In this document: in pieces, positions 2,395-21,466 of the stretch | Numbering within the stretch: the first letter of the stretch is position 1 | Layout: the number at the start of each line of letters is the position of its first letter | Source of the DNA: Paracoccaceae bacterium | Lineage (GTDB): Bacteria > Pseudomonadota > Alphaproteobacteria > Rhodobacterales > Rhodobacteraceae | Assembly (NCBI GenBank): GCA_021741245.1 | Contig: JAIOYF010000016.1 | Span: 1-64,000 of the forward strand | Direction of reading: 5' to 3' | DNA length: 64,000 nucleotides | Notes under the pieces: model-generated | Seen by the model: only the letters and a program-made list of their open reading frames with translations | What the model was told of the DNA's origin: nothing | Database searches by the model: none | Position numbers and translations under genes: made by a program

Positions 2395-2420
2395 GTACGG
2401 CTCCTGTCCGGTGTGAGGAA

Positions 2421-2438
2421 CGGGGGGCCAGCCCCCCG
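2421..2438. repeat. GC hairpin between GAPDH and arsJ
   Basis: A perfect 8-bp inverted repeat (CGGGGGGC / GCCCCCCG, loop CA) lies in the 78-nt gap between the GAPDH and arsJ genes, followed by more G/C homopolymer runs and ATATTTATG. GC-rich intergenic palindromes of this look are frequent in Rhodobacteraceae. It could damp or stabilise the distal part of the ars transcript; it has no T-run and is not a canonical terminator. Confidence 0.5.
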
Positions 2439-2472
2439 GACCCCCCGGGATATTTATGAACAAATGAAGGGA

Positions 2473-3480: not shown

Positions 3481-3485
3481 GAGGG

Positions 3486-4340: not shown

Positions 4341-4360
4341 ACTTCCCGATTAAAGGAAGT
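4341..4360. promoter_or_regulatory. Candidate operator of the arsRC operon
   Basis: A perfect inverted repeat ACTTCC-N8-GGAAGT abuts the ATG of the ArsR/ArsC fusion gene and covers its ribosome binding site (GGGAAG on the minus strand). Position and symmetry fit an autoregulatory ArsR-type operator, but the site is inferred, not proven. Confidence 0.45.
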
Positions 4361-4416
4361 AAATGAGTGCGTCCAATGAAGGTTTCATGACAACCCCGGT
4401 CGAACTGCCAGGTTGA

Positions 4417-4430
4417 TTGATCCAGATCAC
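4417..4430. promoter_or_regulatory. FNR-like dyad in the divergent ars promoter region
   Basis: TTGATCCAGATCAC matches the Fnr/FnrL consensus TTGAT-N4-ATCAA at all but the final base. It lies 51-64 nt upstream of the arsR-permease operon start. Whether Fnr-type control is used here is unknown. Confidence 0.35.
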
Positions 4431-4448
4431 TGCGGAGATTGCCCGCTT

Positions 4449-4464
4449 ATGCGCAGATGCGCAT
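4449..4464. promoter_or_regulatory. Candidate ArsR operator dyad
   Basis: ATGCGC-AGAT-GCGCAT is a perfect inverted repeat ending 16 nt before the preferred ATG of arsR at 4481, a plausible repressor site for that ArsR protein. Confidence 0.35.
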
Positions 4465-4480
4465 GAAGTGGAGTTCCCTG

Positions 4481-4756
4481 ATGATCGTCTCCGTCCTTTC
4501 CGCCCTTGCCGAGCCAACCCGTCTTGAGGCGATGCGTCTCCTGTCGGACGGCTCGGAGCATTGCGTCTGTGAGCTGATGCGCAAGCTGGGCGCGACGCAA
4601 AGCCGGATGTCGCGGCACATGCAGGTGCTCAAGCAAGCCGGGCTGGTCGTGGACAGGCGGGATGCGCAATGGGTGCGCTACCGGATCAGGACAGACCTGC
4701 CACCGCATCTGCGGTCCCTGCTGGCGGCTGCCTTGGTTGAAGAGGTGATGGCGTGA
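4481..4756 (+). CDS. arsR: ArsR/SmtB-family metalloregulator
   Basis: A 91-residue winged-helix repressor. The recognition region reads ELMRKLGATQSRMSRHMQVLKQAGLV, and the metalloid-binding pair sits in EHCVCEL (Cys28 and Cys30), the classic As(III)/Sb(III) sensor motif of ArsR. The ATG at 4481 has GGAG seven bases upstream; earlier in-frame starts at 4439 (TTG) or 4457 are possible and would overlap the dyad at 4449-4464. Its stop overlaps the start of the following permease gene by 4 nt, so the two are co-translated. It likely represses its own operon and perhaps the divergent one. Confidence 0.85.
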   Translation: MIVSVLSALAEPTRLEAMRLLSDGSEHCVCELMRKLGATQSRMSRHMQVLKQAGLVVDRRDAQWVRYRIRTDLPPHLRSLLAAALVEEVMA

Positions 4757-5751
4757 ACGTTTTCACCTGGATGAACGACCAGCTTTTGCGGATGCAGTGG
4801 CTGTCGGACCTTGTGACGTCAGGGGTGCAGGCGGTCGGGCTGGACCCGGCCTCTCGCATCGGCGGCTCGGTGCAGTTCTTTGTCTATGACGTCATCAAGA
4901 TCTTCATCCTGTTGTCGGTTCTGATCTTCGTCATCTCTTATGTGCAAAGCTATTTCCCTCCCGAACGAACCCGGCGCATCCTTGGCGGGCGGTCCGGGAT
5001 CGGGGCAAATTTCCTTGGCGCACTATTGGGAACCATCACGCCGTTCTGCTCGTGCTCCTCCATCCCGCTGTTCATCGGCTTTACCGCAGCCGGTTTGCCG
5101 CTTGGGGTGACGTTTTCCTTCCTGATCTCGTCGCCGCTGGTCGACATGGCCTCAGTCATCCTGCTGGCCTCAATCTTCAGCTGGCCGATCGCGCTGGCCT
5201 TTGTGGGGGTCGGCCTGCTGGTGGCGATCATCGGTGGTACGATCATTGGCAAGCTGGGGATGGAAGATCAGGTCGCGGCCTTCGTGCGCAACGTGCCGGT
5301 CACGGATGCGGAAGAGACCCTGACAAAGGGAGAGCGTGTGGCCTTTGCCCGCGATCAGGTGATGGATATCGTGCGCAAGGTCTGGCCCTATGTGCTGATC
5401 GGGGTTGGCATCGGGGCCGCGATCCACAATTGGGTTCCGGCTGAAACCATCAGCGCGCTGCTGGGGCAGGACAAGTGGTGGGCGGTGCCGGTGGCCGTGC
5501 TGGTGGGCATCCCGATGTATGCCGACATCTTCGGCACCCTGCCGATTGCCGAGGCGCTGGTGGGCAAGGGCGTCGGCCTTGGCACCGTGCTGGCCTTCAT
5601 GATGGCGGTGACGGCGCTGTCGCTGCCCTCGCTGATCATGCTCAAGCGCGTGGTCAAGCTGCCACTGCTGGCCACCTTTACCGGCGTGGTGACCGTGGGC
5701 ATCCTGACCATCGGCTTCACCTTCAACGCCATCACCCACTGGTTCATCTGA
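4753..5751 (+). CDS. ArsP/DUF318-type permease
   Basis: A 332-residue inner-membrane protein with about eight hydrophobic segments and the family hallmark TPFCSCSSIPLFIGF around residue 100, plus a second conserved GIPMYADIFGTLPIAEAL near residue 255. ArsP members export trivalent organoarsenicals; other DUF318 members have unknown substrates. The cysteine pair, the cysteine-bearing ArsR upstream and the thioredoxin-like gene downstream favour a thiol-reactive metalloid substrate. Start codon is GTG at 4753, overlapping the arsR stop. A highly charged loop (DAEETLTKGERVAFARDQ) separates the two halves. Confidence 0.8.
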   Translation: MNVFTWMNDQLLRMQWLSDLVTSGVQAVGLDPASRIGGSVQFFVYDVIKIFILLSVLIFVISYVQSYFPPERTRRILGGRSGIGANFLGALLGTITPFCSCSSIPLFIGFTAAGLPLGVTFSFLISSPLVDMASVILLASIFSWPIALAFVGVGLLVAIIGGTIIGKLGMEDQVAAFVRNVPVTDAEETLTKGERVAFARDQVMDIVRKVWPYVLIGVGIGAAIHNWVPAETISALLGQDKWWAVPVAVLVGIPMYADIFGTLPIAEALVGKGVGLGTVLAFMMAVTALSLPSLIMLKRVVKLPLLATFTGVVTVGILTIGFTFNAITHWFI

Positions 5752-5762
5752 AAGGGAATATC

Positions 5763-5990
5763 ATGATCATCAAGATCCTCGGTTCGGGCTGCAAGAAATG
5801 CGTGACGCTGGGCGAGAATGCCAAAGCTGCGGCGGATGCCGCGGGCAAGGATGCCCAGATCGTCAAGGTCACCGATTTTGCCGAAATCGCGGCCTATGGC
5901 ATCATGTCCACGCCCGGTCTGGTCGTGGATGAAAAGGTGCTGTCGGCGGGCAAAGTGCTGACCGCCGAAGAAATCGGTCGCCTGCTGTGA
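5763..5990 (+). CDS. Thioredoxin-like small redox disulfide protein
   Basis: A 75-residue thioredoxin-fold protein (MIIKILGSGCKKCVTL...) with a CxxC active site (Cys10 and Cys13, sequence CKKC) and the cis-proline segment MSTPGLVVDEKVLSAGK. This is the glutaredoxin-like 'redox-active disulfide' family often encoded beside ArsP/DUF318 permeases. It follows the permease by 11 nt with GAAAGGGAATATC before the ATG, so it is part of the same operon. It probably keeps the permease or its metalloid-thiol substrate in the right redox state; that role is inference. Confidence 0.85.
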   Translation: MIIKILGSGCKKCVTLGENAKAAADAAGKDAQIVKVTDFAEIAAYGIMSTPGLVVDEKVLSAGKVLTAEEIGRLL

Positions 5991-6403
5991 CGGAGTATCC
6001 GCCCGCGGCATCAACATCCACGCGTCTTCTTGCCGCCAATATTGCCAAGCAAGGCGTGCCAAAACTGGGGGCACCTCAATGCGTGATGGTTTGAGGTCGC
6101 GGTCTTCTGTAGGGATGTTCTATCGCGAGATCGACGTTCAGCCTTTGTCAGAAGGTGGCTATCGCCTTCGATCTGGCGTTGTCGCCGGATCAGGTCTGCT
6201 GTCTGCCCAATGTTTTGGTCAGGCGTTAGCGCAATGGATCTGAGGGTGGCCAGTGCAGTTGGGATGCTTTAGGATCAGGGCCTATTGCTGCACAGCCCGG
6301 CCACAGAGATCACAGATCCAACCCGCATACTCACCATGACGCGCCACTGGCAACCACATGGTCTTTCTACGCGGTCCGATAACCCATTCCCAAGGAGCAT
6401 CGT
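5991..6403. other. 413-nt intergenic region, nothing recognised
   Basis: No frame here has a recognisable product and no terminator, tRNA or convincing promoter was seen. The last bases hold a good ribosome site (CAAGGAGCATC) for the GTG start of the RpoN gene. The region marks the border between the arsenic island and the sigma-54 island. Confidence 0.6.
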
Positions 6404-7720
6404 GTGATTGGAATTGATTTTGGCCTGAAGCAACGGACATCGCTTGCGATGACGCCCTTGCTACGCCAAGCCATCGGTTTCATGTCACTTTCCAATGTAG
6501 AGCTTTCTGCAAGACTGGCTGATCTTACACTCAACACGCCGGTGCTGAAAACCACTACCGGCACCGAGTCTGGGGATTGGCTGACCCTGATGCGCCAGAT
6601 TGCACCGCCGCCGTCGGGGATTCATCGCCAGCCACCTGACATTCATCTTGGACCCGGCGGAAGCGACGCCGAGCGTATTCCGCTGGCCGATGCCGGACTG
6701 ATCGCCCATGTCGAAGCGCAGCTGCCGCTCCTTGTCCGCAACAGCGAAGATCGGCGGATTGCGCAGATCTTTTTGTTTTTCCTTGAACCCTCTGGTTGGC
6801 TTGCGGGGACGGTTGCCGAAATTGCGTCAGAGGCAGGCTGTTCCCTCCAGAAAGCTGAGGCCGTCTTGCAGCAATTGCAGGCGGCAGAGCCAACCGGATT
6901 GTTCGCGCGCTCTTTGGCGGAATGCCTTGCGCTTCAGGCCAAGGAAGAGGGCCTTCTGACCCCGTCCTTTGGGGCGATGTTGCGCAATCTGCCGCTTCTG
7001 GCCGCCGGCGAGACCGAGGCATTGGCAGCGGCCTGCGGCTGCGACAGGACCGAGGCTCTGACCATGGCCCGCAGTTTGCGGCGGCTGAACCCAAAACCGG
7101 GTGCAGCATTTGACCAAGGCACACCCACGATGGGCCGTGCCCCGGATCTGATCTTGCGACGCGACGGCGACGGGTGGCTGCTTGAACTGAATGCGCAGAC
7201 AGCGCCCGTACTGCGTCTGGAGACGGGCGCGACGGCCCCGCCGAATGCACTGAGCGCGGCACGCGCCTTGATACAGGCGATTGAGCGGCGGCACGCAACC
7301 GTGTTGGCCGTCGCGACCGAAATTGTTGCCCGGCAAGATGGCTTTTTGCTGGCAAGAGCGCCCCTTGCTGCCCTGACGATCAATGATTTGGCCGCTGCCA
7401 CAGGGCTTCACCGCAGCACGGTCAGCCGCGTTACAGCCGCCCTGACCCTTTCGTTGCCATCGCGAACACTTGGGCTGCGGGCGCTGCTGAGTGCCTCAGC
7501 CCCCGCCGCCCGGCGACAAGAAGAGCCGCTATCGGTTCAGGCAGTGCTGGAGCGGATGCGCGCGCTTGTTAAATCCGAAGATTGCGCAAACCCGCTGACA
7601 GATGATGCGATTGCAAAGCTGCTGTTGCCCGAAGGGGCGGCGCTCGCCAGACGCACTGTTGCCAAATACCGCGCAATCGCAGGTATCCCGTCCAGGTCTG
7701 CCCGCCGACACCTTGCGTGA
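6404..7720 (+). CDS. rpoN: RNA polymerase sigma-54 factor, RpoN paralogue
   Basis: A 438-residue sigma-54 factor. The N-terminal activator-interacting region (LKQRTSLAMTPLLRQAIGF) is followed by the core-binding domain, a helix-turn-helix around residues 326-345 (LTINDLAAATGLHRSTVSRV) and the RpoN box ARRTVAKYR at 415-423, which contacts the -24 element. It is shorter than enteric RpoN (477 residues), with little acidic region II. Start is GTG at 6404 behind AAGGAG. Some Rhodobacteraceae carry several rpoN genes each devoted to one regulon; the adjacent peptide-transport operon with a -24/-12 promoter and its own activator suggests this one is dedicated to the island from 6.4 to 17.2 kb. Confidence 0.9.
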   Translation: MIGIDFGLKQRTSLAMTPLLRQAIGFMSLSNVELSARLADLTLNTPVLKTTTGTESGDWLTLMRQIAPPPSGIHRQPPDIHLGPGGSDAERIPLADAGLIAHVEAQLPLLVRNSEDRRIAQIFLFFLEPSGWLAGTVAEIASEAGCSLQKAEAVLQQLQAAEPTGLFARSLAECLALQAKEEGLLTPSFGAMLRNLPLLAAGETEALAAACGCDRTEALTMARSLRRLNPKPGAAFDQGTPTMGRAPDLILRRDGDGWLLELNAQTAPVLRLETGATAPPNALSAARALIQAIERRHATVLAVATEIVARQDGFLLARAPLAALTINDLAAATGLHRSTVSRVTAALTLSLPSRTLGLRALLSASAPAARRQEEPLSVQAVLERMRALVKSEDCANPLTDDAIAKLLLPEGAALARRTVAKYRAIAGIPSRSARRHLA

Positions 7721-7750
7721 AACACAAACTGGCATGCGTGAACCTCGCGC
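7715..7750. promoter_or_regulatory. Candidate activator sites (UAS) upstream of the transporter operon
   Basis: GCGTG occurs at 7715 and 7736, 21 bp apart; the second reads GCGTG-N5-CGCGC (7736-7750), a near-dyad. The same motif pair lies upstream of the other sigma-54 promoter of the island (15393-15426). The site overlaps the 3' end of rpoN and ends 40 bp before the -24 GG. It is inferred to bind the sigma-54 activator encoded at 14404-15381. Confidence 0.4.
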
Positions 7751-7788
7751 TATCTGGGGGAACGCGCGCGCAATCGTGCCCCCAATTT

Positions 7789-7806
7789 CTGGCACGTCAT
7801 GTGCAT
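7789..7806 (+). promoter_or_regulatory. Sigma-54 (-24/-12) promoter of the peptide-transport operon
   Basis: CTGGCACGTCATGTGCAT fits the YTGGCACG-N4-TTGCW consensus with one deviation (GTGC for TTGC). GG at 7791-7792 and GC at 7803-7804 are separated by exactly 10 nt as sigma-54 requires. Transcription would begin near 7816, 60 nt before the ATG of the substrate-binding protein. Confidence 0.8.
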
Positions 7807-7875
7807 AACTAAAATGTCCGCATCAGAACGGACCAATCACCCAAAATCGGGGCTCATCCAAAAGGGAGAATTCCA

Positions 7876-9414
7876 ATGAATGCACTGCCGCGACTTTTGT
7901 TGGCCACTGCTTTGGCCACATGCCCCGGGATATTCCCGGCCGCCGTCTTGGCCGAGGATCTGATCATCGGTTTCACACTGGATGCCGATACGCTTGATCC
8001 TGCGAACCACCGCAAGCGCGAGACCGAGACGATCATTCGCAACATCTATGACGGTCTTCTGACCCGTGATGCGAACATGCTTGTCGTGCCGGAAATCGCT
8101 GAATCGATGACGCAGGTTTCGGCAACGGAATATGACTTCAAGATCCGCTCGGGTATCAAGTTCCACGACGGCACCATGCTGACCGCCGAAGATGTCAAAT
8201 TCACCCTCGACCGCATTACCGTCGAGGGGGCAATGGGGGGGCAGACAAGCCCACGTCAGGGCCTGATGGGGCCGGTCGCGTCGGTCGAAGTAACTGCGGC
8301 AGATACAGTCCGGATCACGCTGAAAGAACCTTGGCCTATCTTGCCCGCGATGTTGCCCAACCAGCAGATCGTCTCGAAGGCTTATGTGGAAAAAGTCGGC
8401 AATGAGGGTCTGGCCACGATGGAGAATGGCACTGGTCCCTTCAAGCTGGTGGAATGGCGCAAGGGCGATGCCGTCATTTTGGAGCGGTTCGATGACTACT
8501 ACGGGGGCGCCACAGACATTGCTCCGGTCGGCAAGGCCTGCGTGGATCGGGTGATCTTCAAGATCATCCCCGAAAGCGCAAGCCGTGTGGCGGCGCTTTT
8601 GGCGGGCGAAGTGCAAATCATCAACGAGCTGCCCGCCTTTTCGATGGCGCAGGTTGCCGCAAATGATGGCACGCAGGTGATGACGGTGAACGGCACCCGC
8701 AGCTTCTTTATCGCCATGAACATGGAAGGCGAGGCCTTTGATGACATCAAGGTGCGCCAAGCTGCCGCGATGTCCATCGACAAGGATTTGATCATCGACA
8801 AGATCCTTGCCGGCACTGCGTCGCCCATCGACGGGATATTGTCGCCAGACGCCTTTGGTGCCAGCGAACTGCCGAAAGCAGGCTATGACCTGGAAAAGGC
8901 GAAGGCGCTTTTGGTTGAGGCCGGCTTCCCCGATGGGATCGATGTGACGATGGATACCGAAGGTGCCTTCAAGGACACCGCCGAGGCTGTTGCCTCAATG
9001 CTGACCAAGGCAGGTATCCGCACGACTGTGGTGGTGGGAGAGGGCGCGCAGCTTTCCGATAAATGGCGCACCAAAGGCGCGCCGAAGTCGGGCGACATGT
9101 ACTTCACCAGTTGGGGAAATGGCTCGCTTGATCCTTTCGACATCTTCACCCCCACGCACCGCACCAACGACCGGGGCAATTCGGCAGGCTATGCCAACCC
9201 GGCCCTCGATGCCTTGCTGGATGCGGCGGCCGTAGAACTGGACGTCGAAAAGCGCCGTGCAATGTATCGTGAGGCCGAGTTGATGATCAACGCGGATCAA
9301 CCCTATGTCTACCTGTGGGTTCCCCAAGACATCTATGGCGTCTCAAAGCGGGTGACTGGCTGGCAGCCGAGCGCTGACAGCCGGATCAATCTGCACGACG
9401 CCTGCCTGAACTGA
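7876..9414 (+). CDS. Peptide-type ABC transporter substrate-binding protein (family 5)
   Basis: A 512-residue periplasmic solute-binding protein of the DppA/OppA family. Residues 1-26 form a Sec signal peptide ending AAVLA; the mature part begins EDLIIGFTLDADTLDPANHRK, and the family-5 signature DFKIRSGIKFHDGTMLTAEDVKFTLDR lies around residues 92-118. It binds di-/oligopeptides or peptide-like compounds for the two permeases and two ATPases encoded next. A strong ribosome site (AAAGGGAGAATTCC) precedes the ATG. It is the first gene after the sigma-54 promoter at 7789, so uptake is probably tied to the dedicated RpoN. The ligand cannot be told from sequence. Confidence 0.9.
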   Translation: MNALPRLLLATALATCPGIFPAAVLAEDLIIGFTLDADTLDPANHRKRETETIIRNIYDGLLTRDANMLVVPEIAESMTQVSATEYDFKIRSGIKFHDGTMLTAEDVKFTLDRITVEGAMGGQTSPRQGLMGPVASVEVTAADTVRITLKEPWPILPAMLPNQQIVSKAYVEKVGNEGLATMENGTGPFKLVEWRKGDAVILERFDDYYGGATDIAPVGKACVDRVIFKIIPESASRVAALLAGEVQIINELPAFSMAQVAANDGTQVMTVNGTRSFFIAMNMEGEAFDDIKVRQAAAMSIDKDLIIDKILAGTASPIDGILSPDAFGASELPKAGYDLEKAKALLVEAGFPDGIDVTMDTEGAFKDTAEAVASMLTKAGIRTTVVVGEGAQLSDKWRTKGAPKSGDMYFTSWGNGSLDPFDIFTPTHRTNDRGNSAGYANPALDALLDAAAVELDVEKRRAMYREAELMINADQPYVYLWVPQDIYGVSKRVTGWQPSADSRINLHDACLN

Positions 9415-9436
9415 ATTTGAACCGGGAGCACTTGGG

Positions 9437-10444
9437 ATGAGTTTTGGAAAGCTGCTTGAACGGATTATCCAGCTTATCCCCGTGTTGCTTGGGGTCAGCC
9501 TCATCGTCTTTGTGATGTTGGCGTTGACCCCGGGCGATCCGGTTCAGATCATGGTTGGCGAACAGTCGATCACGCCCGAGCAAGAGGCCGAGCTACGGCG
9601 TGACCTTGGCCTGGACAAACCAATGGTGGAACGGTTCTTTATCTTCCTTGGGAATGCAGCCCAGTTCGATTTCGGGCAAAGCTATTATCACGGTCGCCCT
9701 GTTTCGGCTGTGATCGCAGAGCGGCTGCCTGCGACGATCGAACTTAGCCTTGTTGCGTTGATCGTGGCCCTTGTGACCGCAATCCCATTGGGCGTTCTGG
9801 CCGCAATCCGCAAGAACTCGGTCCTTGACCGATTGGCCACGGTCGGCTCCTTGCTCGGCGTGTCGCTGCCGGGTTTCTGGTTTGGCATCCTCTTGATCAT
9901 GCTTTTCTCGGTTCACCTTCAGATCCTGCCTGTGTCCGGGCGGATCGGCTATGCCAGCGAAGTGCCCACCGTCAGTGGATTTCTTTTGATCGACACCCTT
10001 TTGGCAGGCGACGTCAGGGCCTTTGGCGAGGCCTTGCGATACCTGATCCTTCCGGCCATCACACTGGGCCTGCCAATGACGGCAATCTTGATGCGTGTGA
10101 CCCGAACTTCGATGCTGGAGGTGATGCGACAAGACTATATCACCTTTGCCGAGGCAAAGGGCCTGCCGCGCCGCCGTGTGCTTTTCCGCCATGCATTGAA
10201 GAACGCGCTTATCCCCACCGTATCGGTTGCGGCCATTGAAATGGGCAGCCTTCTGGGTGGGAATATGATCGTGGAAACCGTCTTTGGCTGGCCGGGCTTG
10301 GGTCGGTTGGTCGTGGAGAGTATTTTCTTGCGCAACTACCCGCTCGTGCAGGCGGCGGTGCTGCTCTACGCGGTCACCTATGTGCTGCTCAACTTCATCG
10401 CCGATATCCTTTATACTGTCCTGAACCCAAGGGTGAAGCTGTGA
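9437..10444 (+). CDS. Peptide-type ABC transporter permease (DppB-like)
   Basis: A 335-residue inner-membrane protein with six predicted membrane spans, N-terminal FLERIIQLIPVLLGVSL-type start (here LLERIIQLIPVLLGVSLIVF) and the EAA loop YITFAEAKGLPRRRVLFRHALKNALIP that contacts the ATPases. It is the first of two permease subunits of the importer and typical in length for DppB/OppB. It follows the binding protein by 22 nt and overlaps the next permease gene by 4 nt, so it lies within one operon. Confidence 0.9.
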   Translation: MSFGKLLERIIQLIPVLLGVSLIVFVMLALTPGDPVQIMVGEQSITPEQEAELRRDLGLDKPMVERFFIFLGNAAQFDFGQSYYHGRPVSAVIAERLPATIELSLVALIVALVTAIPLGVLAAIRKNSVLDRLATVGSLLGVSLPGFWFGILLIMLFSVHLQILPVSGRIGYASEVPTVSGFLLIDTLLAGDVRAFGEALRYLILPAITLGLPMTAILMRVTRTSMLEVMRQDYITFAEAKGLPRRRVLFRHALKNALIPTVSVAAIEMGSLLGGNMIVETVFGWPGLGRLVVESIFLRNYPLVQAAVLLYAVTYVLLNFIADILYTVLNPRVKL

Positions 10445-11334
10445 CCGAGGCAACACTGGCATCCGCTCCTCCCGCAGACTCGCTTTTTCGCAGGAACCTG
10501 CGGGATTTCCGCAGCAACCGTCTGGCCATGGCCTCGGTCATTGTGGTTCTGATCTTTGTCATCATGGCAGTGGCGGCCCCGCTGATTGCGCCACAAGACC
10601 CTAATGAAACGGACCTTTTTCGCAGGCTGCAACCGCCTGCCTGGATCGAGGGCGGCGAGTGGGCCTTTGTGCTTGGCTGTGACGGCCTTGGACGAGACAT
10701 CTTTTCACGCATCATCTACGGCGCACGCATCTCGATCTTTATTGGTGTGGCGGTGATTGTTCTGGCGACGGGCGTGGGCATCCTTGCCGGTCTGGCTGCG
10801 GGTTATTTCCGTGGCTGGGTTGATGTGGTGATCGGTCGGATCGTCGATATCTTGCTGGGCTTTCCCTATCTGATCTTCGCTATCGGCCTGATGGCCATGA
10901 TGGGTCCGGGGCTGTTCAATATCGTGCTTGCACTTGCCTACAAGGAATGGGTCATCCCGTGCCGCGTTGTCCGGGGCGAAACACTGGCTGTGCGGGAACT
11001 GGAATATGTCGAGGCGGCCCGCGCCCTTGGTGCCGGGTCACGTCATATCATGTGGCGCGAGATCCTGCCCAATATCCTGTCACCCGTGATCGTTGTCTCA
11101 ACCATCCGCATGGCCAATGTCATCATCCTTGAGGCATCACTGTCATTCCTTGGGCTGGGCGTGCAACCGCCGACCGCAAGTTGGGGCAGCATGGTGTCGG
11201 ACGGGCGCGCCTTCATCCTTGAGGCATGGTGGGTTTCTACCTTTCCCGGCGTTGCCATCTTGCTGTTGGTTCTTGCCATCAATGTTGCGAGCCAAGGCCT
11301 GCGCGACGCCTTTGACCCGAGGTTCAGCGAATGA
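10441..11334 (+). CDS. Peptide-type ABC transporter permease (DppC-like)
   Basis: A 297-residue second permease subunit with an N-terminal cytoplasmic stretch, a first span at about residues 35-55, then the DPNETDLFRRLQPP and LGCDGLGRDIFSRIIYGARIS segments conserved in DppC/OppC. The coupling EAA loop is LEYVEAARALGAGSRHIMWREILPN. Start is GTG at 10441, overlapping the dppB-like stop; its own stop overlaps the next ATPase gene by 4 nt. It forms a heterodimeric channel with the preceding protein. Confidence 0.9.
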   Translation: MTEATLASAPPADSLFRRNLRDFRSNRLAMASVIVVLIFVIMAVAAPLIAPQDPNETDLFRRLQPPAWIEGGEWAFVLGCDGLGRDIFSRIIYGARISIFIGVAVIVLATGVGILAGLAAGYFRGWVDVVIGRIVDILLGFPYLIFAIGLMAMMGPGLFNIVLALAYKEWVIPCRVVRGETLAVRELEYVEAARALGAGSRHIMWREILPNILSPVIVVSTIRMANVIILEASLSFLGLGVQPPTASWGSMVSDGRAFILEAWWVSTFPGVAILLLVLAINVASQGLRDAFDPRFSE

Positions 11335-12320
11335 CCCTGCTTCTTGAAGTGACGAACCTGTGCACCGAATTCAACACCCGCGCCGGGCTGGTCCGGGCGG
11401 TGGATGGCGTCAGCCTGCGGGTATCACGCGGGGAATGTCTTGGCGTGGTTGGCGAAAGTGGTTCGGGAAAATCGGTGACCTTTGCCTCGGTCATGGGGTT
11501 GGTGCGATCTCCCGGTCGGATCACACATGGCATGATTTTCTTTGACGGTCGTGAGTTGCGGGACATGTCGCCCGATGAAATGCGCGCGACCCGCGGCCGT
11601 GACATCGCAATGACGATGCAAGATGCGCTGACCGCCCTGAACCCCGCCCTGACCGTGGGCGAACAATTGTCGGAAGTTCTGATCGCGCATGACGAGACAT
11701 TGCCCGCCGGACGGGCTGCCCGCCGTGTGGCGATCCGCGACAAATGCGTCGAGATGCTGGGTCTTGTCGGCATCCCTTCGCCGCAATCCCGTCTGGCGCA
11801 ATATCCGCACGAATTTTCGGGCGGGATGCGGCAACGGATCATGATCGCCATCGCCTTGGCTTGCCGCCCCAAACTGCTGATCGCCGATGAACCAACGACC
11901 GCGCTGGATGTGACCATACAGGCGCAGGTGCTGGAGCTGATCTCGGATATTCGGGCGCGACTGGGGATGGCGGTGGTGTTAATCACCCATGATCTTGGCG
12001 TGGTTGCCGAGCATTGCGACCGCGTGATGGTCATGTATGCCGGTCAGGTGGTGGAAGAGGGGCCGACAGAGCAGGTTATCACCCAGCCGCGCCACCCCTA
12101 CACTCGGGGGCTTTTGGCCTCTATCCCGCGGCCAGCGATGCGAGGCCAGCCCTTGACCCCGATCAACGGACAGGTGCCCGATCTGGTCGGGCTGCCGCCG
12201 CAATGCCGGTTTCAGTCCCGCTGCCCGATGGCGCGGCCCGAATGTCTGGTCGAGGTGCCGATGTTTGACGCAGGCCCTGACCGTCGTGCCCGCTGTCTGC
12301 GCCTGGAGGATATGCCATGA
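11331..12320 (+). CDS. Peptide-type ABC transporter ATPase (DppD-like)
   Basis: A 329-residue ATPase with Walker A GESGSGKS near residue 40, signature FSGGMRQRIMIAIAL, Walker B LLIADEPTTALD, the H-loop (LITHDLG) and the C-terminal oligopeptide-transporter domain containing a cysteine array (CRFQSRCPMARPECLVEVP) seen in DppD/OppD that may hold an iron-sulfur cluster. It pairs with the next ATPase to power import. Overlaps of 4 nt with both neighbouring genes show tight co-translation. Confidence 0.9.
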   Translation: MTLLLEVTNLCTEFNTRAGLVRAVDGVSLRVSRGECLGVVGESGSGKSVTFASVMGLVRSPGRITHGMIFFDGRELRDMSPDEMRATRGRDIAMTMQDALTALNPALTVGEQLSEVLIAHDETLPAGRAARRVAIRDKCVEMLGLVGIPSPQSRLAQYPHEFSGGMRQRIMIAIALACRPKLLIADEPTTALDVTIQAQVLELISDIRARLGMAVVLITHDLGVVAEHCDRVMVMYAGQVVEEGPTEQVITQPRHPYTRGLLASIPRPAMRGQPLTPINGQVPDLVGLPPQCRFQSRCPMARPECLVEVPMFDAGPDRRARCLRLEDMP

Positions 12321-13321
12321 GCTTGCTTCAGGTTACTGACCTGTCGATGCATTATCAAGGCCGCCAATCTCTGGTCCAGCGCCTGTCGGGCAATCCGCAA
12401 TCGGTTGTTCGAGCGGTAGAGGGCGTTTCGCTGCATGTTGAAAAGGGCGAGGTGCTGGGCCTGATTGGCGAAAGTGGCTGCGGCAAGTCCACCTTGGGCC
12501 GCGCAATCTTGCGACTGCACGAACCGACCGCAGGCAAGGTTTTGTTTGACAACAGCGATGTCACCGCGTTGTCGCCCCCCGCGCTCAAGGCGATGCGGCG
12601 CCGGATGCAGATCATCTTCCAAGACCCTTACGCAAGCCTGAACCCCCGCCGCACCGTGGCCGAAATCGTTGGTCTGCCTTTGGCGCTGCATGGCATCGCA
12701 ATGGGCGATAAAGCACGCGAGATCACAGCACAGGTCCTGGAACGCGTTGGCCTTCGGTCAAGCCAACTTGACCGCTACCCACACCAGTTCTCCGGCGGCC
12801 AGCGGCAGCGTATCGGCATTGCAAGGGCGCTTGTCTCCAACCCCGAGTTCATAGTCTGCGATGAACCCGTATCGGCGCTGGACGTCTCTATTCAGGCACA
12901 GATCATCGCGCTTTTGCTGGAATTGAAGCGTGAACTGGGGTTGACCTATCTTTTCATCAGCCACGATATCTCGGTAATCGGGTACCTGAGTGACAGGGTT
13001 GCGGTGATGTATCTGGGCGAGATCGTTGAAACCGGGCCGGTCGCCGCGGTGTTGGACAATCCGCGCCATCCCTATACGCAAAGCCTGCTGTCTGCCGTGC
13101 CTGAAATCGGGGCCAAACGGGCAAAAGGCCGGGTGCGGTTGCAAGGTGACCTGCCCTCGCCCCTGAACCCACCAAAGGGTTGCAAGTTCCACACGCGCTG
13201 TCCGCTGGCCATTCCGATGTGCCAGACGATCGTCCCCGTTGTGCAAACATTGGGAGAGGGTCATCAGGCCGCCTGCCACCGCCTTGACGAAGGACTAAGC
13301 CTGCTGGACGGTGCCCGATGA
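12317..13321 (+). CDS. Peptide-type ABC transporter ATPase (DppF-like)
   Basis: A 334-residue ATPase with Walker A GESGCGKS, signature FSGGQRQRIGIARAL, Walker B FIVCDEPVSALD, and the C-terminal CKFHTRCPLAIPMCQ cysteine array. With the preceding ATPase it completes a five-gene importer. It overlaps the C45 hydrolase gene by 4 nt (ATGA), which places that enzyme in the same transcript and makes it likely that it processes the imported substrate. Confidence 0.9.
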   Translation: MSLLQVTDLSMHYQGRQSLVQRLSGNPQSVVRAVEGVSLHVEKGEVLGLIGESGCGKSTLGRAILRLHEPTAGKVLFDNSDVTALSPPALKAMRRRMQIIFQDPYASLNPRRTVAEIVGLPLALHGIAMGDKAREITAQVLERVGLRSSQLDRYPHQFSGGQRQRIGIARALVSNPEFIVCDEPVSALDVSIQAQIIALLLELKRELGLTYLFISHDISVIGYLSDRVAVMYLGEIVETGPVAAVLDNPRHPYTQSLLSAVPEIGAKRAKGRVRLQGDLPSPLNPPKGCKFHTRCPLAIPMCQTIVPVVQTLGEGHQAACHRLDEGLSLLDGAR

Positions 13322-14379
13322 TTGAGGTTTCGGCCCGCGGCACCCCCTATGAGCGGGGACGGGCACAACACGGCGCGGCTTTGGCAACAACGGTGCAACA
13401 GGCCACTGTCGCACGGGTCGAACGGGCAAGGGCCGATGGTCTGATCGACGCCGAAGCCCAAACCTATCTGACCGCGCAACGCCAGTTTCACGAAACCCTT
13501 GATCCCGAAGGTCTGGCGGAACTTGCAGGTGTGGCGGATGCTTTTGGCTTGTCCAAGACAGACCTGTTTGCGCATCTGCACTTGGGCACGTTGCGCGACA
13601 TGAAAGGCGGCGCTGTGCTGCTGGACGGGTGCAGCGCATGGGCCGTTCCGGGTGGGCCGGAAGGGCCGCTCGTGGTCAAGAACCGCGACTTTTCAGGCCT
13701 GCACCTTGGAATTCAATGTGTCATGCGCCACGCAGGTCCTGATATCGCAACCGGGCAAGTGCTTAGCCTTGGCAGCCTTGGCAGTCTGGCGGCGTGGTCC
13801 TCTGGCATTAACGCAGCCGGGCTTGCCGTGGCCGACACACAGGTGGCCGTGAACCGACATCGTGTGGGTTGGCTGCGGTATTTCCTGTTGCCCCGCCTCC
13901 TCGCCCGCGCGCAAACGGTGGCCGACGCTCTGGCCCTGATCCGCAGCCTGCCGCATGCGGGGGGAGGGACCTTGGTCCTGGCAGATCGTGATGGGGCAAC
14001 GGCGGCAGTAGAGCTTTCCGCGACGGGCCCGGTAATTGCGACAGGTGGACTGCAATGGCGAACCAACCACTACACCGCCCCTACAACGCAGGGTGAAACG
14101 CTTGGCCCCGATGGTGATCGGATTGCAGGCAATTCCCACCGCCGATTTGACTATCTGGGGCAGGTCTTGCCAGAACGGTCGTGGACAAACGGTGCCGCGA
14201 AAACCCTGATGTCCACCCATCCCGGCCCCAAGGCCGCCCCGCTTTGCCAGCATGCCGATGGTGCAGACGGAGCCGAGACCATTTCTTCGGTCATCTATTC
14301 GTGTAATGTCAACGGAATGGAGATCAGCGAAGGCACGCCCTGTCTTGGCCGCTGGCAGGTGATTACCCCCTGTCAATGA
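13318..14379 (+). CDS. C45-family N-terminal-nucleophile hydrolase/acyltransferase
   Basis: A 353-residue protein of the acyl-CoA:6-aminopenicillanate acyltransferase (C45) family. The N-terminus (IEVSARGTPYERGRAQHGAAL) and the autocleavage/nucleophile site DGCSAWAV (Cys105) followed by VVKNRDFSG are diagnostic; C45 enzymes self-cleave before the cysteine and hydrolyse or transfer amide-linked acyl groups. Here the gene is translationally coupled to a peptide-type importer, so the natural job is probably cleavage of an imported amide or N-acyl compound, not antibiotic synthesis. No signal peptide, hence cytoplasmic. The substrate is unknown. Confidence 0.8.
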   Translation: MIEVSARGTPYERGRAQHGAALATTVQQATVARVERARADGLIDAEAQTYLTAQRQFHETLDPEGLAELAGVADAFGLSKTDLFAHLHLGTLRDMKGGAVLLDGCSAWAVPGGPEGPLVVKNRDFSGLHLGIQCVMRHAGPDIATGQVLSLGSLGSLAAWSSGINAAGLAVADTQVAVNRHRVGWLRYFLLPRLLARAQTVADALALIRSLPHAGGGTLVLADRDGATAAVELSATGPVIATGGLQWRTNHYTAPTTQGETLGPDGDRIAGNSHRRFDYLGQVLPERSWTNGAAKTLMSTHPGPKAAPLCQHADGADGAETISSVIYSCNVNGMEISEGTPCLGRWQVITPCQ

Positions 14380-14403
14380 CCGGTCCGGGTACAAAGGAAC
14401 GGC

Positions 14404-15381
14404 ATGGCAGACTACCGCAACGAACTTGTCGGAACTTCACCGGCCATTGAATCCTTGCGCAGACTGATCGAACGGATTGGCCGCAGCCCAACCCGGACGG
14501 TGTTGATCTATGGTGAAACGGGCACGGGCAAGGGGTTGGTCGCGCGGATGATCCACCAAATCTCCAGCCGGGCGGATCGAGATTTTGTCGACATCAACTG
14601 CGCTGCCTTGCCCGCAAGTCTGATGGAGTCGGAGCTTTTTGGCCATGAAAAAGGCGCCTTCACGGGGGCCGTTGATCGCAAAATGGGGTTGGTTGAGGCT
14701 GCAAATCATGGCAGCGTTTTCTTGGACGAGATCCGGGAAATGGACCTGACCCTGCAGGCAAAGCTGCTGACGCTTCTTGATACTCAACAGTTCCGGCGGG
14801 TCGGGGCCGTCAAACAGGTCAAGGTCGACGTGCGCTTTATTGCGGCCACCAACAAAGTGTTGTTGACCGAAGTCAACTCGGGCCGGTTCCGCGAAGATTT
14901 GTACTATCGGCTTCAGGTGATTGCAGTAAACCTGCCCGCCTTGCGCGAACGGCGCGACGATGTGCTGACACTGGCCCGCCATTTCATTGCGCGCTTCAAC
15001 CGCTCATACGGCCGCAGCGTCCGGGGCCTGGCACCGGAAACCGAGCAGATCTTTCTGCGCTATCCTTGGCCGGGGAATGTGCGTGAATTGGAAAATCTGC
15101 TTGAGCGCATTTTCATTCTTGAGGATGAAGACGAGATATTGCCACGTCATCTGCCTGACCGAATATTGCGCACTGTCTCTGGTCAAGACAACAAGGTGGC
15201 ATCTGCGCCGATGGATGTCGGCGACGACTACCATTCCGCAACCGAGGCGTTTCAGCGCAGCCTTATCGGGCAGGCCATGTCGCAGGCGGACGGTAACCCG
15301 CAAGATGCGGCAAAAACCCTTGGATTGTCGCGCCATGCCCTCCGCCACCAGATGATCAAACTGGGCCTTCTGAAAGCTTGA
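14404..15381 (+). CDS. Sigma-54-dependent activator without a sensor domain
   Basis: A 325-residue enhancer-binding protein. The AAA+ domain starts almost at residue 1: Walker A GETGTGKG at 37-44, the sigma-54-contacting GAFTGA loop at 84-89, Walker B VFLDE at 105-109, and sensor FIAATNK. A Fis-type helix-turn-helix closes the protein (NPQDAAKTLGLSRHALRHQMIKLG). There is no receiver, PAS or other N-terminal input domain, so activity must be controlled by expression, by a partner (as for PspF/HrpR types), or be constitutive. Its position inside the island points to the two -24/-12 promoters at 7789 and 15475 as targets. Confidence 0.9.
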   Translation: MADYRNELVGTSPAIESLRRLIERIGRSPTRTVLIYGETGTGKGLVARMIHQISSRADRDFVDINCAALPASLMESELFGHEKGAFTGAVDRKMGLVEAANHGSVFLDEIREMDLTLQAKLLTLLDTQQFRRVGAVKQVKVDVRFIAATNKVLLTEVNSGRFREDLYYRLQVIAVNLPALRERRDDVLTLARHFIARFNRSYGRSVRGLAPETEQIFLRYPWPGNVRELENLLERIFILEDEDEILPRHLPDRILRTVSGQDNKVASAPMDVGDDYHSATEAFQRSLIGQAMSQADGNPQDAAKTLGLSRHALRHQMIKLGLLKA

Positions 15382-15392
15382 TCGTCGCTTGG

Positions 15393-15426
15393 GCGTGACT
15401 TTCGCACTTTTGCGTGGGTTTCGCGC
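15393..15426. promoter_or_regulatory. Candidate activator sites (UAS) upstream of the AtuA-like operon
   Basis: Two tandem near-dyads, GCGTG-N5-CGCAC (15393-15407) and GCGTG-N5-CGCGC (15412-15426), 19 bp apart and ending 50 bp before the -24 GG. They match the motifs at 7715-7750 and are the best candidates for binding by the local sigma-54 activator. Confidence 0.45.
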
Positions 15427-15474
15427 ACATATCGAGGGATGTGCAGGCTTGGCGTCCCGTTTTGCCCCAGAGTT

Positions 15475-15492
15475 CTGGCACGCTTTGCGCAT
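15475..15492 (+). promoter_or_regulatory. Sigma-54 (-24/-12) promoter of the AtuA-like operon
   Basis: CTGGCACGCTTTGCGCAT has GG at 15477-15478 and GC at 15489-15490 with the required 10-nt interval. It is nearly the same as the promoter at 7789, sharing TTCTGGCACG upstream and GCATAA downstream. Transcription would start near 15502, about 26 nt before the ATG at 15528. Confidence 0.8.
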
Positions 15493-15527
15493 AAGAAGGG
15501 GTATAACGCCGTGTGCAAGAGGATACC

Positions 15528-16886
15528 ATGTCGTCTATTAGGATCATCTGCCCGAATGGGCATCTGGGTTTTGCACCACTCAAAACCGAAAGCTTCCGTT
15601 TTGCCGTGGAAACGCGTCCCGATTTCATTGCTGCCGATTCAGGCAGTGACGACATTGGCCCCGTTCCCCTCGGCAATGACAGCTGTGCCAGCCCTCGTGC
15701 ATGGCAAGAGCATGACCTTGAGGAAATGCTCTTGGCGTCGCGCCGTCTTGGTGTGCCCATGGTCATCGGATCAGCAGGCGATACGGGCACGAATTCCCGG
15801 GTCGACATGTTTGTCCAGATCATTCGCGACATCGCAGCGCGGCACAATCTGCCGCCCTTCAGACTGGGATGGTTCTATTCCGAGGTGGATCGCGAATACG
15901 TTCGTGCAAAGATCCGCAACGGCTCTGCCATTCGGGGGCTTGATGCCCGTGACTACCTCACGGAAGAGGAACTCGACGCCACGTCCCGCGTCGTGGCAAT
16001 GGCGGGCGTGCACCCTTTCGTAAAGCTTCTGGAAGCGGGCTGTGATGTGATCATCGGGGGGCGGTCGTCTGACAGCGCCATCTTTGCGGCCTGCGCCCTG
16101 TTCAAAGGATATCCCGAGGCGGAAAGCTATTATCTTGGCAAGGTGCTTGAATGTGCCTCGTTCTGTGCGGAACCCTATGGCGCCAAAGAGACGGTCATGG
16201 GGGAGATCACGTCCGAGGCTGTGGAAGTGACTGCGATGGCCGCATGGCAGCGCTGCACCGTCGCGTCTGTTGCAGGCCATGCGATGTATGAGCGTTCAAA
16301 CCCGTTCCATGAATTCGTGGCCGGTGGCATGTTGGACATGACGCATTGCCACTATGACCAAGTCAGCGAAAAGACGACCCGTGTCACCGGGATGGACTTT
16401 GTTCCGGCAGAGGATTTCCGGGTCAAGTTGGAAGGGTCGGGCAAGGTGGGCGAGCGATTTATTGGCATGGCCGGCATCCGCGACCCCTATACCATCGCCA
16501 ACGTCGATGCAGTGATCGACTGGGCGCGAACGCAGACGATTGAGCGGTTTGGCCCGACAGGCTGGGAATTGCATTACAACGTCTTTGGACGCAACGGCGT
16601 GATGGGCGATATGGAACCCCTGAAGGACAAGCCCGGCCACGAGCTTTGCGTTGTGGTTCAAGGTGTGGCACCGACGCGCGAAATGGCGGAAGAGGTGTGC
16701 ATGACCGGCACACGGCAGATGTTCTATGCCCGCCTGCCCGACGTCAAGGGAACGGCCGGTGGCGTGTCCTTTGTGCTGGACGAGGTTATTCAGGCCAGCC
16801 CCGCCTATCGCTGGACGCTTAATCACACGATGGCGGTCAGTGATCCGCTGGAACTGTTCCCCACCCATTTCGAAACCGTCGGTTGA
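15528..16886 (+). CDS. AtuA-like (DUF1446) protein
   Basis: A 452-residue member of the acyclic-terpene-utilisation AtuA/DUF1446 family, recognised from IRIICPNGHLGF at the N-terminus, the DSGSDDIGP segment, GSAGDTGTNSRVD, and GCDVIIGGRSSDSAIFAACAL. AtuA was named from citronellol catabolism, but the biochemical activity of this branch is not established; in many genomes it is paired with a DUF4387 gene as here, probably as two subunits. The ATG at 15528 is preferred over GTG at 15513 because AGAGG lies just upstream. It is driven by the sigma-54 promoter at 15475. Confidence 0.8.
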   Translation: MSSIRIICPNGHLGFAPLKTESFRFAVETRPDFIAADSGSDDIGPVPLGNDSCASPRAWQEHDLEEMLLASRRLGVPMVIGSAGDTGTNSRVDMFVQIIRDIAARHNLPPFRLGWFYSEVDREYVRAKIRNGSAIRGLDARDYLTEEELDATSRVVAMAGVHPFVKLLEAGCDVIIGGRSSDSAIFAACALFKGYPEAESYYLGKVLECASFCAEPYGAKETVMGEITSEAVEVTAMAAWQRCTVASVAGHAMYERSNPFHEFVAGGMLDMTHCHYDQVSEKTTRVTGMDFVPAEDFRVKLEGSGKVGERFIGMAGIRDPYTIANVDAVIDWARTQTIERFGPTGWELHYNVFGRNGVMGDMEPLKDKPGHELCVVVQGVAPTREMAEEVCMTGTRQMFYARLPDVKGTAGGVSFVLDEVIQASPAYRWTLNHTMAVSDPLELFPTHFETVG

Positions 16887-16894
16887 GGCGCGCC

Positions 16895-17224
16895 ATGAAC
16901 CATAACAAGAAACTTTCGGATCTTGCAAAGACCATTCGGTCCAAGAATGCGGGCACCGACAAGATCACTTTCGACATCATCTTCCGCGAGCGCGAGACCT
17001 ATGAGATGGTCAAACGCTCAGGCGCGCTGACACGCGATAGCGTCTGCCATATCTTGAAGGTCGCACCCGAGCGCCTGACGGATTTTGTCGAATATGATCC
17101 GGCCTATGCCATCAAGTTCACCATCCTGCGGGTGCGCCCTTCGGGCAGTGCCGGAGATGGGGACATCTTTGGTGCACAGCAATATGCCCCCTTCCTCGAT
17201 CTCGAAGTGGACATTTCGGCCTGA
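16895..17224 (+). CDS. DUF4387 protein, partner of the AtuA-like protein
   Basis: A 109-residue protein (LSDLAKTIRSKNAGTDKITFDIIF...) of the DUF4387 family, which in other genomes is a small subunit or a C-terminal extension of AtuA-like proteins. It contains the conserved NAG and FDIIF elements and ends DLEVDISA. It follows the AtuA-like gene by 8 nt with GAGG upstream of the ATG at 16895; a TTG at 16883 is a less likely start. Function unknown; co-expression with the AtuA-like protein is nearly certain from spacing. Confidence 0.8.
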   Translation: MNHNKKLSDLAKTIRSKNAGTDKITFDIIFRERETYEMVKRSGALTRDSVCHILKVAPERLTDFVEYDPAYAIKFTILRVRPSGSAGDGDIFGAQQYAPFLDLEVDISA

Positions 17225-17405: not shown

Positions 17406-17617
17406 TCACACAGGGCGCCCATGCGGCATCCCCGCTTTGACCACACCGAAGGTCGTCAGCCGCAGAAACGACCCGCGCGCCATGCCGAACTCGGTTTCCG
17501 CCAGTGCCGGGATCACAGTGCGCATTAGGCCGATGGCAAGCCGACCAGCAGAACCTGGATCAGCTGATGCGTGAACTGCGCACGGTTTTCGCGGATGCCA
17601 AGGGGAAGCGCAGTCAT
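17406..17617 (-). pseudogene. MFS transporter N-terminal remnant, frameshifted
   Basis: The minus strand from the ATG at 17617 encodes MTALPLGIRENRAQFTHQLIQVLLVGL, then shifts frame and continues AIGLMRTVIPALAETEFG and ARGSFLRLTTFGVVKAG. Joined, this is the first membrane span and following loop of an MFS permease family whose members start in the same way. The sequence stops matching at about 17425, so at most 60 residues of a roughly 400-residue protein remain. Its ATG overlaps the stop of the sterol desaturase gene, so the two were an operon. Both are now broken. Confidence 0.6.
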
Positions 17618-18550: not shown

Positions 18551-18994
18551 ATGTCAATCAGCCCCAAGGCCGCCCTGATGGAGGAATACGCGATGGTCGC
18601 CCACGCGCTTTCGGCGCCTGCACGGCTGATGTTGCTGGAACAGATCGCCCAAGGGGAACGCGGCGTGGAGGCGCTTGCCGACAAGACCGGCCTCACAATC
18701 GCCAATGCCTCGCAACATCTGCAGCACATGCGCCGGGCCGGGCTGGTCACCAGCCGCCGGGAGGGCAAGTCTGTGCTCTACCGGCTCAGCGACGCAAAGA
18801 CCCTTTCTCTGCTGGACATGATCGGCGTCGTGGCGGATCGCAATTTGGCACAGGTGGAGCGCATTTTGCGCGGCCTTTCAGATGGTGTAGATGCCCCAGA
18901 ACCCCTTACCCGCGCAGAACTGGCTGCACGATTGAAGGAAGGGTCCGTCACACTCTTTGATGTCAGGCCGCCTGATGAGTTTGCGATGGGCCAC
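18551..18994 (+). pseudogene. ArsR-family regulator with rhodanese domain, truncated
   Basis: Residues 1-95 are an ArsR/SmtB winged helix (MLLEQIAQGERGVEALADKTGLTIANASQHLQHM). A linker leads to the start of a rhodanese domain (LTRAELAARLKEGSVTLFDVRPPDEFAMGH), which is cut after about 148 residues where the sequence changes to the reverse complement of an nnrU gene. The missing part includes the rhodanese catalytic cysteine, so sulfur transfer is lost. The open frame continues into junk to 19141. The regulator normally controls the divergent desaturase operon, which is also broken. Confidence 0.7.
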
Positions 18995-19187
18995 AGGGTG
19001 CCCGGCCTGCGGCGGCGATCAGCCAGAACAGCACCACCAAGGATACGATGCCATAACCCGGAAAATACAGGCGGCGGCGGAACTTGCCGATCAGGATTTC
19101 ACGCAGGCCGCCAACTCTGGGCAGGAAATGCGACGCCTTGAAAACCACCAGCGCCAGCGCGAACTCTGCCCAGCCCGAAAGGATCAT
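18995..19187 (-). pseudogene. nnrU: NnrU-family membrane protein, truncated
   Basis: The minus-strand peptide MILSGWAEFALALVVFKASHFL ... RLYFPGYGIVSLVVLFWLIAAAGRAP has the first two membrane spans of NnrU, a protein needed for nitric oxide reductase expression or assembly in denitrifying Rhodobacteraceae. After GRAP, about 64 residues in, the sequence becomes the antisense of a rhodanese-domain gene; about two thirds of the protein is missing. Its ATG overlaps the stop of the preceding nor-cluster gene (ATGA), so it was the distal gene of the nor operon. Confidence 0.65.
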
Positions 19188-21463: not shown

Positions 21464-21466
21464 GGC

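Follow-up and report, generated by a model that had tools for sequence, protein, structure and literature searches.

Sigma-54 is usually regarded as a global factor, common to many activators. In a 64,000-nt stretch of DNA from a Paracoccaceae bacterium (assembly GCA_021741245.1, contig JAIOYF010000016.1, positions 1 to 64,000; hereafter the window), we found ten plus-strand genes at positions 6404-17224 that, on comparative evidence, probably form a self-contained, horizontally mobile sigma-54 catabolic unit with its own RpoN, activator and matching promoters. This cassette, or island, encodes an RpoN paralogue, a family 5 solute-binding protein (SBP), four further importer components, a C45 N-terminal nucleophile (Ntn) hydrolase, a sigma-54 activator (enhancer-binding protein, EBP), an AtuA family protein and a DUF4387 protein. 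Domain and family models confirmed the presence and positions of all ten genes, as listed by a first-pass annotation made from the sequence alone, with the most likely starts revised to the ATG at 15528 for AtuA (AGGA at 15520) and to the ATG at 16895 for DUF4387. In the scheme that we infer, the island RpoN would direct RNA polymerase to two -24/-12 promoters, one for the importer and C45 genes (operon 1) and one for the AtuA/DUF4387 pair (operon 2), while the activator would bind a palindromic site, TGCGTGAAATTCACGCA, that lies 47-115 bp ahead of the -24 GG, and would open both promoters. Operon 1 ends with the activator gene, so induction should give positive feedback. One pathway seems to travel with its own sigma-54, which is the sole copy found in some genomes.

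The complete gene order rpoN-SBP-B-C-D-F-C45-EBP-AtuA-DUF4387 was found in 21 loci (the window, L077-L082, L084, L086, L087-L091, L093-L095, L134, L139, L142 and L144; L085 and L132 were dropped as repeats of L086 and L078, respectively). Two more cassettes, L083 and L092 with L137 (one genome), end at contig edges and agree over the visible part. A C45 search of 295 genomes of the family gave matches in 32, 11 of them at ≥50% identity with the own genome included, and a scan of genome contigs gave 9 loci at 72-79%; the RpoN search of the family matched in 129 of 394 genomes. Among the regions examined (16 from the C45 search, 18 further rpoN regions and two of the own genome), the distant C45 regions (27-31% identity; L099, L100 and L101) had no rpoN, EBP or AtuA of the island kind. 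The cassette was missing from 12 of the 18 rpoN regions of other genomes, including L145 and L147, which show little sequence downstream of rpoN, indicating that it is not a general feature of rpoN loci.

Both putative promoters of the window have a GG and a GC 10 bases apart in a TGGCAC and TGC context, as expected of sigma-54 promoters, and the -12 element of operon 2 reads GCGCA where TTGCA would be expected. Scored with a profile built from the other loci only, they ranked first and second on both strands of the 64 kb (26.4 and 25.2 bits, the next being 11.6), so the earlier count of exactly two strong promoters held against a profile independent of the window. The window holds 2 matches to TTCTGGCACGNNNNGNGCATAA at ≤3 mismatches, where 0.19 would be expected (a count of 2 also arose in 1 of 100 shuffles), and exact matches to TGGCACGN6GCATAA in the 4.2 Mb genome were confined to the two island sites; as both patterns derive from these sites, the counts show merely the absence of a third. 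TGGCACGN5TGC with 2 mismatches gave no useful excess in the window (144 places against 126.6 expected, with 7 of 100 shuffles as high), and the island pattern with 2 mismatches had 50 genome-wide matches on one strand and 55 on the other, compared with 33 and 53 for a reversed control. Because such a loose consensus was uninformative, tighter patterns, position and profiles were used instead. Across the readable island regions, a -24/-12 site preceded SBP in 22 of 22 (GC 65-90 bp ahead of the start) and AtuA in 23 of 23 (18-28 bp ahead). An ad hoc promoter score reached ≥18 in 45/45 regions and ≥20 in 42/45; when these regions were resampled with a Markov model, 8.6% and 0.5% of the copies did so. 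A consistent -24/-12 site was also sought before rpoN, EBP and C45, and none was found among the loci scored.

Motif search upstream of both promoters in the 45 regions returned one palindrome, TGCGTGAAATTCACGCA, with a total of 925 bits against 406-422 in four base-shuffled sets; the shuffled sets had fewer restarts, and near-copies among the loci raise the real score. This palindrome, whose two copies in the window the first-pass annotation had not noted, is likely the activator site, and we treat it as a putative upstream activating sequence (UAS). With a 17-base profile trained on loci other than the window, a putative UAS above 8 bits was present in 45/45 regions (the lowest best score being 10.7), whereas the whole 64 kb window contains 8 such sites; its centre lies 47-115 bp upstream of the -24 GG. 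These distances cluster at steps of about 11 bp (mean resultant 0.79 over 45 regions; p 0.035 after collapsing near-duplicates by hand), a hint of helical phasing. We regard it as very likely that the island activator drives both promoters and, with slightly less confidence, that the island RpoN does so too. A further UAS-like word, TGCGTGAACTGCGCACG, lies at 17568-17584 of the window (13.8 bits), about 350 bp beyond the cassette, and no -24/-12 site was found near it among the top profile matches.

Relatives of the cassette at class level carried the metabolic genes without a linked rpoN, as seen in 11 of the best places, plus an extension of L098, examined from a C45 search of 385 genomes of the class (29 with a match). 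Four of them encode an activator with an intact GAFTGA: L202 (Ciceribacter thiooxidans), L214, L215 and L098. Both promoters and UAS are present in L202 and L215; one site only was found in L214 (the SBP promoter, without UAS) and in L098 (an AtuA promoter, whose UAS is perfect). A single unlinked rpoN was found in each of the genomes of L214, L215 and L098, and L202 is known from a plasmid record alone, the one record (Ciceribacter) obtained by tblastn against plasmids. On this 1.38 Mb C. thiooxidans replicon the cluster, with activator, promoters and UAS and without a linked rpoN, occupies L202 positions 5481-14956. Seven relatives have no activator (L216, L217, L219, L220, L221, L223 and L097), and the promoter score reached ≥20 in 0/15 of their regions, with rpoN present in 6 of the 7 genomes and missing from that of L097 (G014); L218 and L222, with incomplete regions, and L224, which is not the same cluster, were left unscored.

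A changed activator loop was seen in genome G183, where the activator (L096, 8427-9377) reads GSFAGA instead of GAFTGA, the gene order is changed and no rpoN was found in a genome of completeness 100. Its best promoter scores were 14 for the SBP region and 18 for the AtuA region, where the site is out of place at 93 bp from the start, and a UAS-like word of 13.8 bits is retained. According to PMC3162934, changes of the GAFTGA Phe or Thr mostly abolish sigma-54 activation, and such activators occur where sigma-54 is missing, the threonine change being described there for TyrR, DhaR and HupR and for Jannaschia sp. CCS1. Unlike those cases, the loop change in G183 affects a relative of the catabolic cluster itself, which allows the states before and after to be compared. 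No intact activator of the island kind was seen in either of the two rpoN-less relatives (G183 and G014). These comparisons indicated that the promoters track an intact activator: both sites were missing only where the activator is absent or broken, and homologous islands consistently without sites, named earlier as the result that would refute the regulon, were not found. The related clusters span metabolic genes alone, metabolic genes with an activator, metabolic genes with activator and sigma factor, and a sigma-54-less state with a decayed activator loop, stages on which the acquisition and the loss of an enhancer-dependent promoter system can be tested directly.

Over the 21 loci, 14 of 18 splits in the tree of the metabolic genes recurred for RpoN and 14 for EBP, and the EBP and RpoN trees had 13 in common; 500 label shuffles of the RpoN against the metabolic tree gave a maximum of 2 common splits. 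This agreement indicates that the cassette has been inherited largely together. The co-occurrence of gene order, promoters and RpoN subtype that the first-pass annotation had proposed to check was borne out by 21 complete loci, a promoter in 45/45 regions and largely congruent trees. The flanks, read over 832-4000 bp upstream and 133-5000 bp downstream for open reading frames of ≥110 aa, had 3 protein groups in common, each in 2 loci only, and L079 and L081 had none in common though their RpoN proteins are nearly identical. Such unlike flanks mean that the cassette moves as a block or that its surroundings are often rearranged; the same unit in different surroundings supports the description of the regulon as transferable. 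Island guanine-cytosine content roughly tracks that of the flanks. One cassette (L077, 3083-13902) lies on a contig labelled Hoeflea sp. from a metagenome-assembled genome, yet in the trees its RpoN, its EBP and its metabolic genes fall among Pseudotabrizicola loci, through transfer or mis-binning.

The island RpoN exceeded the Pfam cut-offs for Sigma54_AID, CBD and DBD and carries ARRTVAKYR, in keeping with the paralogue and RpoN box first described. It scored 248 bits on NCBIfam TIGR02395, under the cut-off of 277, which marks it as a divergent sigma-54 member. In the island alignment RRTVAKYR and the R383 position are retained, and the E378 position is Arg in the near clade. A tree of 56 RpoN proteins separated 22 island RpoN from 34 others by one branch. 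By branch lengths, the RpoN of the cassette (window 6404-7720) evolves several-fold faster than the metabolic genes. Searching for the sigma-54 DNA-binding family in 19 genomes, 16 of them with the island (the genomes of L077 and L079-L084 being outside this search), we found the island rpoN to be the sole rpoN in 9 of the 16 (G279, G012, G114, G074, G129, G152, G168, G315 and G353).

This count bears on the possibility that the sites are ordinary sigma-54 promoters served by any cellular RpoN, the linked rpoN being a redundant passenger. The window genome does have two further rpoN genes, and in L202, L214, L215 and L098 an activator occurs with at least one -24/-12 site and no linked rpoN, three searched genomes of this kind having rpoN elsewhere, so another RpoN can evidently serve the island activator type. 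We nevertheless regard a passenger rpoN as improbable, given that no other rpoN was found in the nine genomes above, that the linked rpoN is intact in frame and domains and has a tree largely congruent with that of the cassette, and that RpoN1, RpoN2 and RpoN3 of Cereibacter sphaeroides each work with their own activator (PMC11999139). A title cited in PMC12316311 states that the four C. sphaeroides RpoN proteins are not interchangeable.

Whether the island RpoN serves the cassette exclusively is a separate matter. In six of the nine sole-rpoN genomes, activator loops were surveyed (weak matches unread; the contig-end fragments G114:C71 and G012:C11 have the loop out of view). The island EBP was the only inspected activator with G[AS]FTGA in G279, G012, G114 and G152, whose other activator-type proteins read GAFPGA, GAMPGA or have no loop, while G074 and G315 each have one further activator with an intact loop (GAFTGA or GSFTGA). 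In these last two genomes, where the sole rpoN is that of the island, its RpoN probably serves two regulons, in line with a reading in which the RpoN is linked and used and yet serves further promoters or activators. We consider such a shared RpoN possible but the less probable case, given the four genomes without a second intact-loop activator and given the window genome, which has its two other rpoN genes beside three further G[AS]FTGA activators. Of those two genes, the copy at C11 sits in a flagellar cluster (FliM, FliR, FlhB), and the three activators are two GAFTGA proteins at C11 and one GSFTGA protein at C7, which fits the one-RpoN-one-activator pattern reported for C. sphaeroides (PMC11999139). 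On balance, the island RpoN is somewhat more likely than not to be essentially private to the cassette. The sole-sigma-54 genomes, together with promoters that track the activator, support the earlier claim of a dedicated regulon.

The sigma factor and its promoters also covary. With the recognition helix numbered HE378STISR383 after PMC5505868, the E378 position is Arg in nine loci including the window, Pro in L087 and Gln in L134, and each of these 11 loci has a G at the start of the -12 pentamer in both promoters (22/22 sites). A G stands there at 1/22 sites (L095, SBP) of the 11 loci that have Glu (ten) or Ala (L142). In these counts L092 and L137 were taken as one genome, and L083 (GCGCA, rpoN out of view) was excluded. 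Genetic work implicates E378 in -12 recognition (PMC4496707). The 11 loci without Glu or Ala form one tree group and represent one evolutionary event, not 11. More speculatively, the cassette might be a portable regulon through which genomes devoid of sigma-54 transcription acquire it, and its specificity might have drifted until private; sigma factor and promoters would then make up a naturally orthogonal pair devoted to one catabolic pathway. The cassette is a candidate orthogonal sigma-54 tool.

In the island activator (325 aa), the AAA+ domain begins at residue 8, and both GAFTGA and a helix-turn-helix (HTH) of the Fis type are present; Pfam domains and alignment confirmed that nothing precedes the AAA+ domain, i.e. 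that the GAFTGA activator lacks an input domain as originally noted. PspF-type activators are built likewise (AAA+ plus Fis-type HTH, nothing ahead, about 325 aa), but the NCBIfam PspF models fall far under cut-off on the island protein (258 vs 444 and 220 vs 529 bits), and none of the ten cassette genes is of the pspA type. The missing sensor domain and the flanks, which show no recurrent neighbouring gene, would suit operons that are always on, with a gene order that reflects co-transfer only and no real regulation. This seems quite unlikely to us, in that activators without an input domain can be restrained by a separate inhibitor, as PspF is by PspA, and in that the two promoters and their UAS keep to set distances, a conservation that constitutive expression does not need.

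RpoN/activator pairs with small regulons are already known; what appears new here is a catabolic cassette with its own sigma-54, activator and putative enhancer sites. A close likeness is C. (Rhodobacter) sphaeroides, a related bacterium in which RpoN1/NifA, RpoN2/FleQ and RpoN3/AprX likewise join an RpoN paralogue to its own activator and a small gene set; the available text of PMC11999139 gives the regulons as nif, flagella and xrpA, attributes a REC domain to AprX, cites a difference at promoter position -11 between RpoN1 and RpoN2 and assigns no known role to RpoN4. In contrast, the sigma factor, the activator and both target operons of the island lie in one catabolic cassette, and the activator has no input domain. 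Chlamydia trachomatis and Lactobacillus plantarum have a sigma-54 with a single activator, tied in L. plantarum to sugar uptake (PMC3162934); these belong to other phyla, and L. plantarum uses a phosphotransferase system where the island has an ATP-binding cassette importer. No described cassette combining sigma-54, activator, enhancer sites and catabolic genes was found among the open-licence papers covered, judged from titles and abstract openings for part of the papers matched.

As to the chemistry, AtuA matched PDB 9erq_A, 'citramalate lyase subunit A' (CmlA), at E 1.7e-76, and DUF4387 matched 9erq_B, 'citramalate lyase subunit B' (CmlB), at E 1.5e-22. Both subunits of citramalate lyase (PDB 9erq, 9evf) were matched nearly full length, and the two genes are adjacent in the window. 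The pair is better read as of the citramalate-lyase type. In the open-licence literature we found no paper on DUF4387 and none joining citramalate lyase to AtuA; a methylaspartate gene paper mentions a DUF1446 gene, without a function in the part available (PMC4682846). In the C45 protein, Cys105 is invariant in 20/20 aligned sequences. Its fold, predicted from 20 sequences (pLDDT 89.7), best matched isopenicillin N acyltransferase 2x1e in the PDB (TM 0.78) and, less closely, acid ceramidase, NAAA and bile salt hydrolases, all Ntn amidases or acyltransferases; searching solved structures by the C45 sequence gave no match. AtuA is the better conserved of the two across cassettes, with identities to the window of 77-94% for AtuA and 50-79% for C45.

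An amide-type compound would be imported and its amide cut by the C45 hydrolase, and the CmlAB-like pair would split the released hydroxy acid, which may be citramalate-like (the namesake reaction gives pyruvate and acetate). From the matches and the predicted fold we infer this substrate class tentatively, regarding import, amide hydrolysis and then aldol-type hydroxy-acid cleavage as a plausible sequence that may well not hold. The 'amide' label first attached to these enzymes stands for C45, on its fold, and not for AtuA/DUF4387. The cassette may instead have nothing to do with amides, its importer carrying a metal chelate or peptide and AtuA/DUF4387 acting as another lyase or hydratase; the SBP matches many ligand types, all under the specific NCBIfam cut-offs. 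That alternative appears rather doubtful in view of the C45 family and fold, which are those of amidases or acyltransferases, and of the almost full-length match of both lyase subunits to the 9erq pair. The cassette hints at a form of amide catabolism that is unstudied and suggests a role for DUF4387.

Several observations weigh against the interpretation of the cassette as a self-contained sigma-54 catabolic unit. The control sites are not independent, as the loci belong almost without exception to a single bacterial family and include near-copies (L079 and L081). Support for the separate island RpoN group is 73, which is not strong, and the two extra rpoN genes of the window genome, one of them flagellar, might serve the island promoters. 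The SBP promoter is degenerate in L088 (TGGAACA/CTGCA, score 18) and reads CAGCA in L090, and the putative UAS on the SBP side of the window is weak, at 11.8 bits and fourth in the window. Among relatives, a region of L223, which has no EBP, scored 19 and one of G183 scored 18, both out of place. The citramalate label rests on PDB molecule names, and no paper on it was found in the open-licence literature.

Features of the sigma-54 cassette and its putative control sites in the window
Feature	Position	Strand	Details
rpoN paralogue (sigma-54)	6404..7720	+	438 aa, GTG start; recognition helix HRSTVSR; RpoN box ARRTVAKYR; Pfam AID/CBD/DBD
Putative UAS, operon 1	7735..7751	.	TGCGTGAACCTCGCGCT; 11.8 bits, fourth best of 64 kb
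Putative -24/-12 promoter, operon 1	7788..7808	+	TGGCACG-N4-GTGCAT; TGGCACG from 7790
SBP, family 5 extracellular solute-binding protein	7876..9414	+	PF00496 E 3.3e-82
dppB/oppB-type permease	9437..10444	+	domain/family model matches
dppC/oppC-type permease	10441..11334	+	domain/family model matches
dppD-type ATPase	11331..12320	+	domain/family model matches
dppF-type ATPase	12317..13321	+	domain/family model matches
C45 autoproteolytic Ntn hydrolase	13318..14379	+	NF040521 151.9 bits (cut-off 85); invariant Cys105, presumed nucleophile
Sigma-54 activator (EBP), last gene of operon 1	14404..15381	+	PF00158 E 2.3e-65; HTH_8; GAFTGA; no input domain
Putative UAS, operon 2	15411..15427	.	TGCGTGGGTTTCGCGCA; 20.3 bits, best of 64 kb
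Putative -24/-12 promoter, operon 2	15474..15494	+	TGGCACG-N4-GCGCAT; TGGCACG from 15476
AtuA family protein, CmlA-like lyase subunit A	15528..16886	+	PF07287; alternative GTG start 15513
DUF4387, CmlB-like lyase subunit B	16895..17224	+	PF14330 E 3.6e-34

A tRNA scan of the window found none. Upstream of the cassette, window positions 1147-5990 hold an arsenic-type group consisting of a major facilitator superfamily protein, GAPDH, a fusion of ArsR with a low-molecular-weight phosphatase and an ArsP permease, and a small open reading frame near 5763-5990 appears thioredoxin-like by eye. Downstream, positions 18551-19141 encode an ArsR-type HTH followed by the first part only of a rhodanese domain, which seems cut short, and the minus strand at 19583-23613 carries nitric oxide reductase-type genes for a VWA protein, a CbbQ/NorQ ATPase and a COX1-type subunit.

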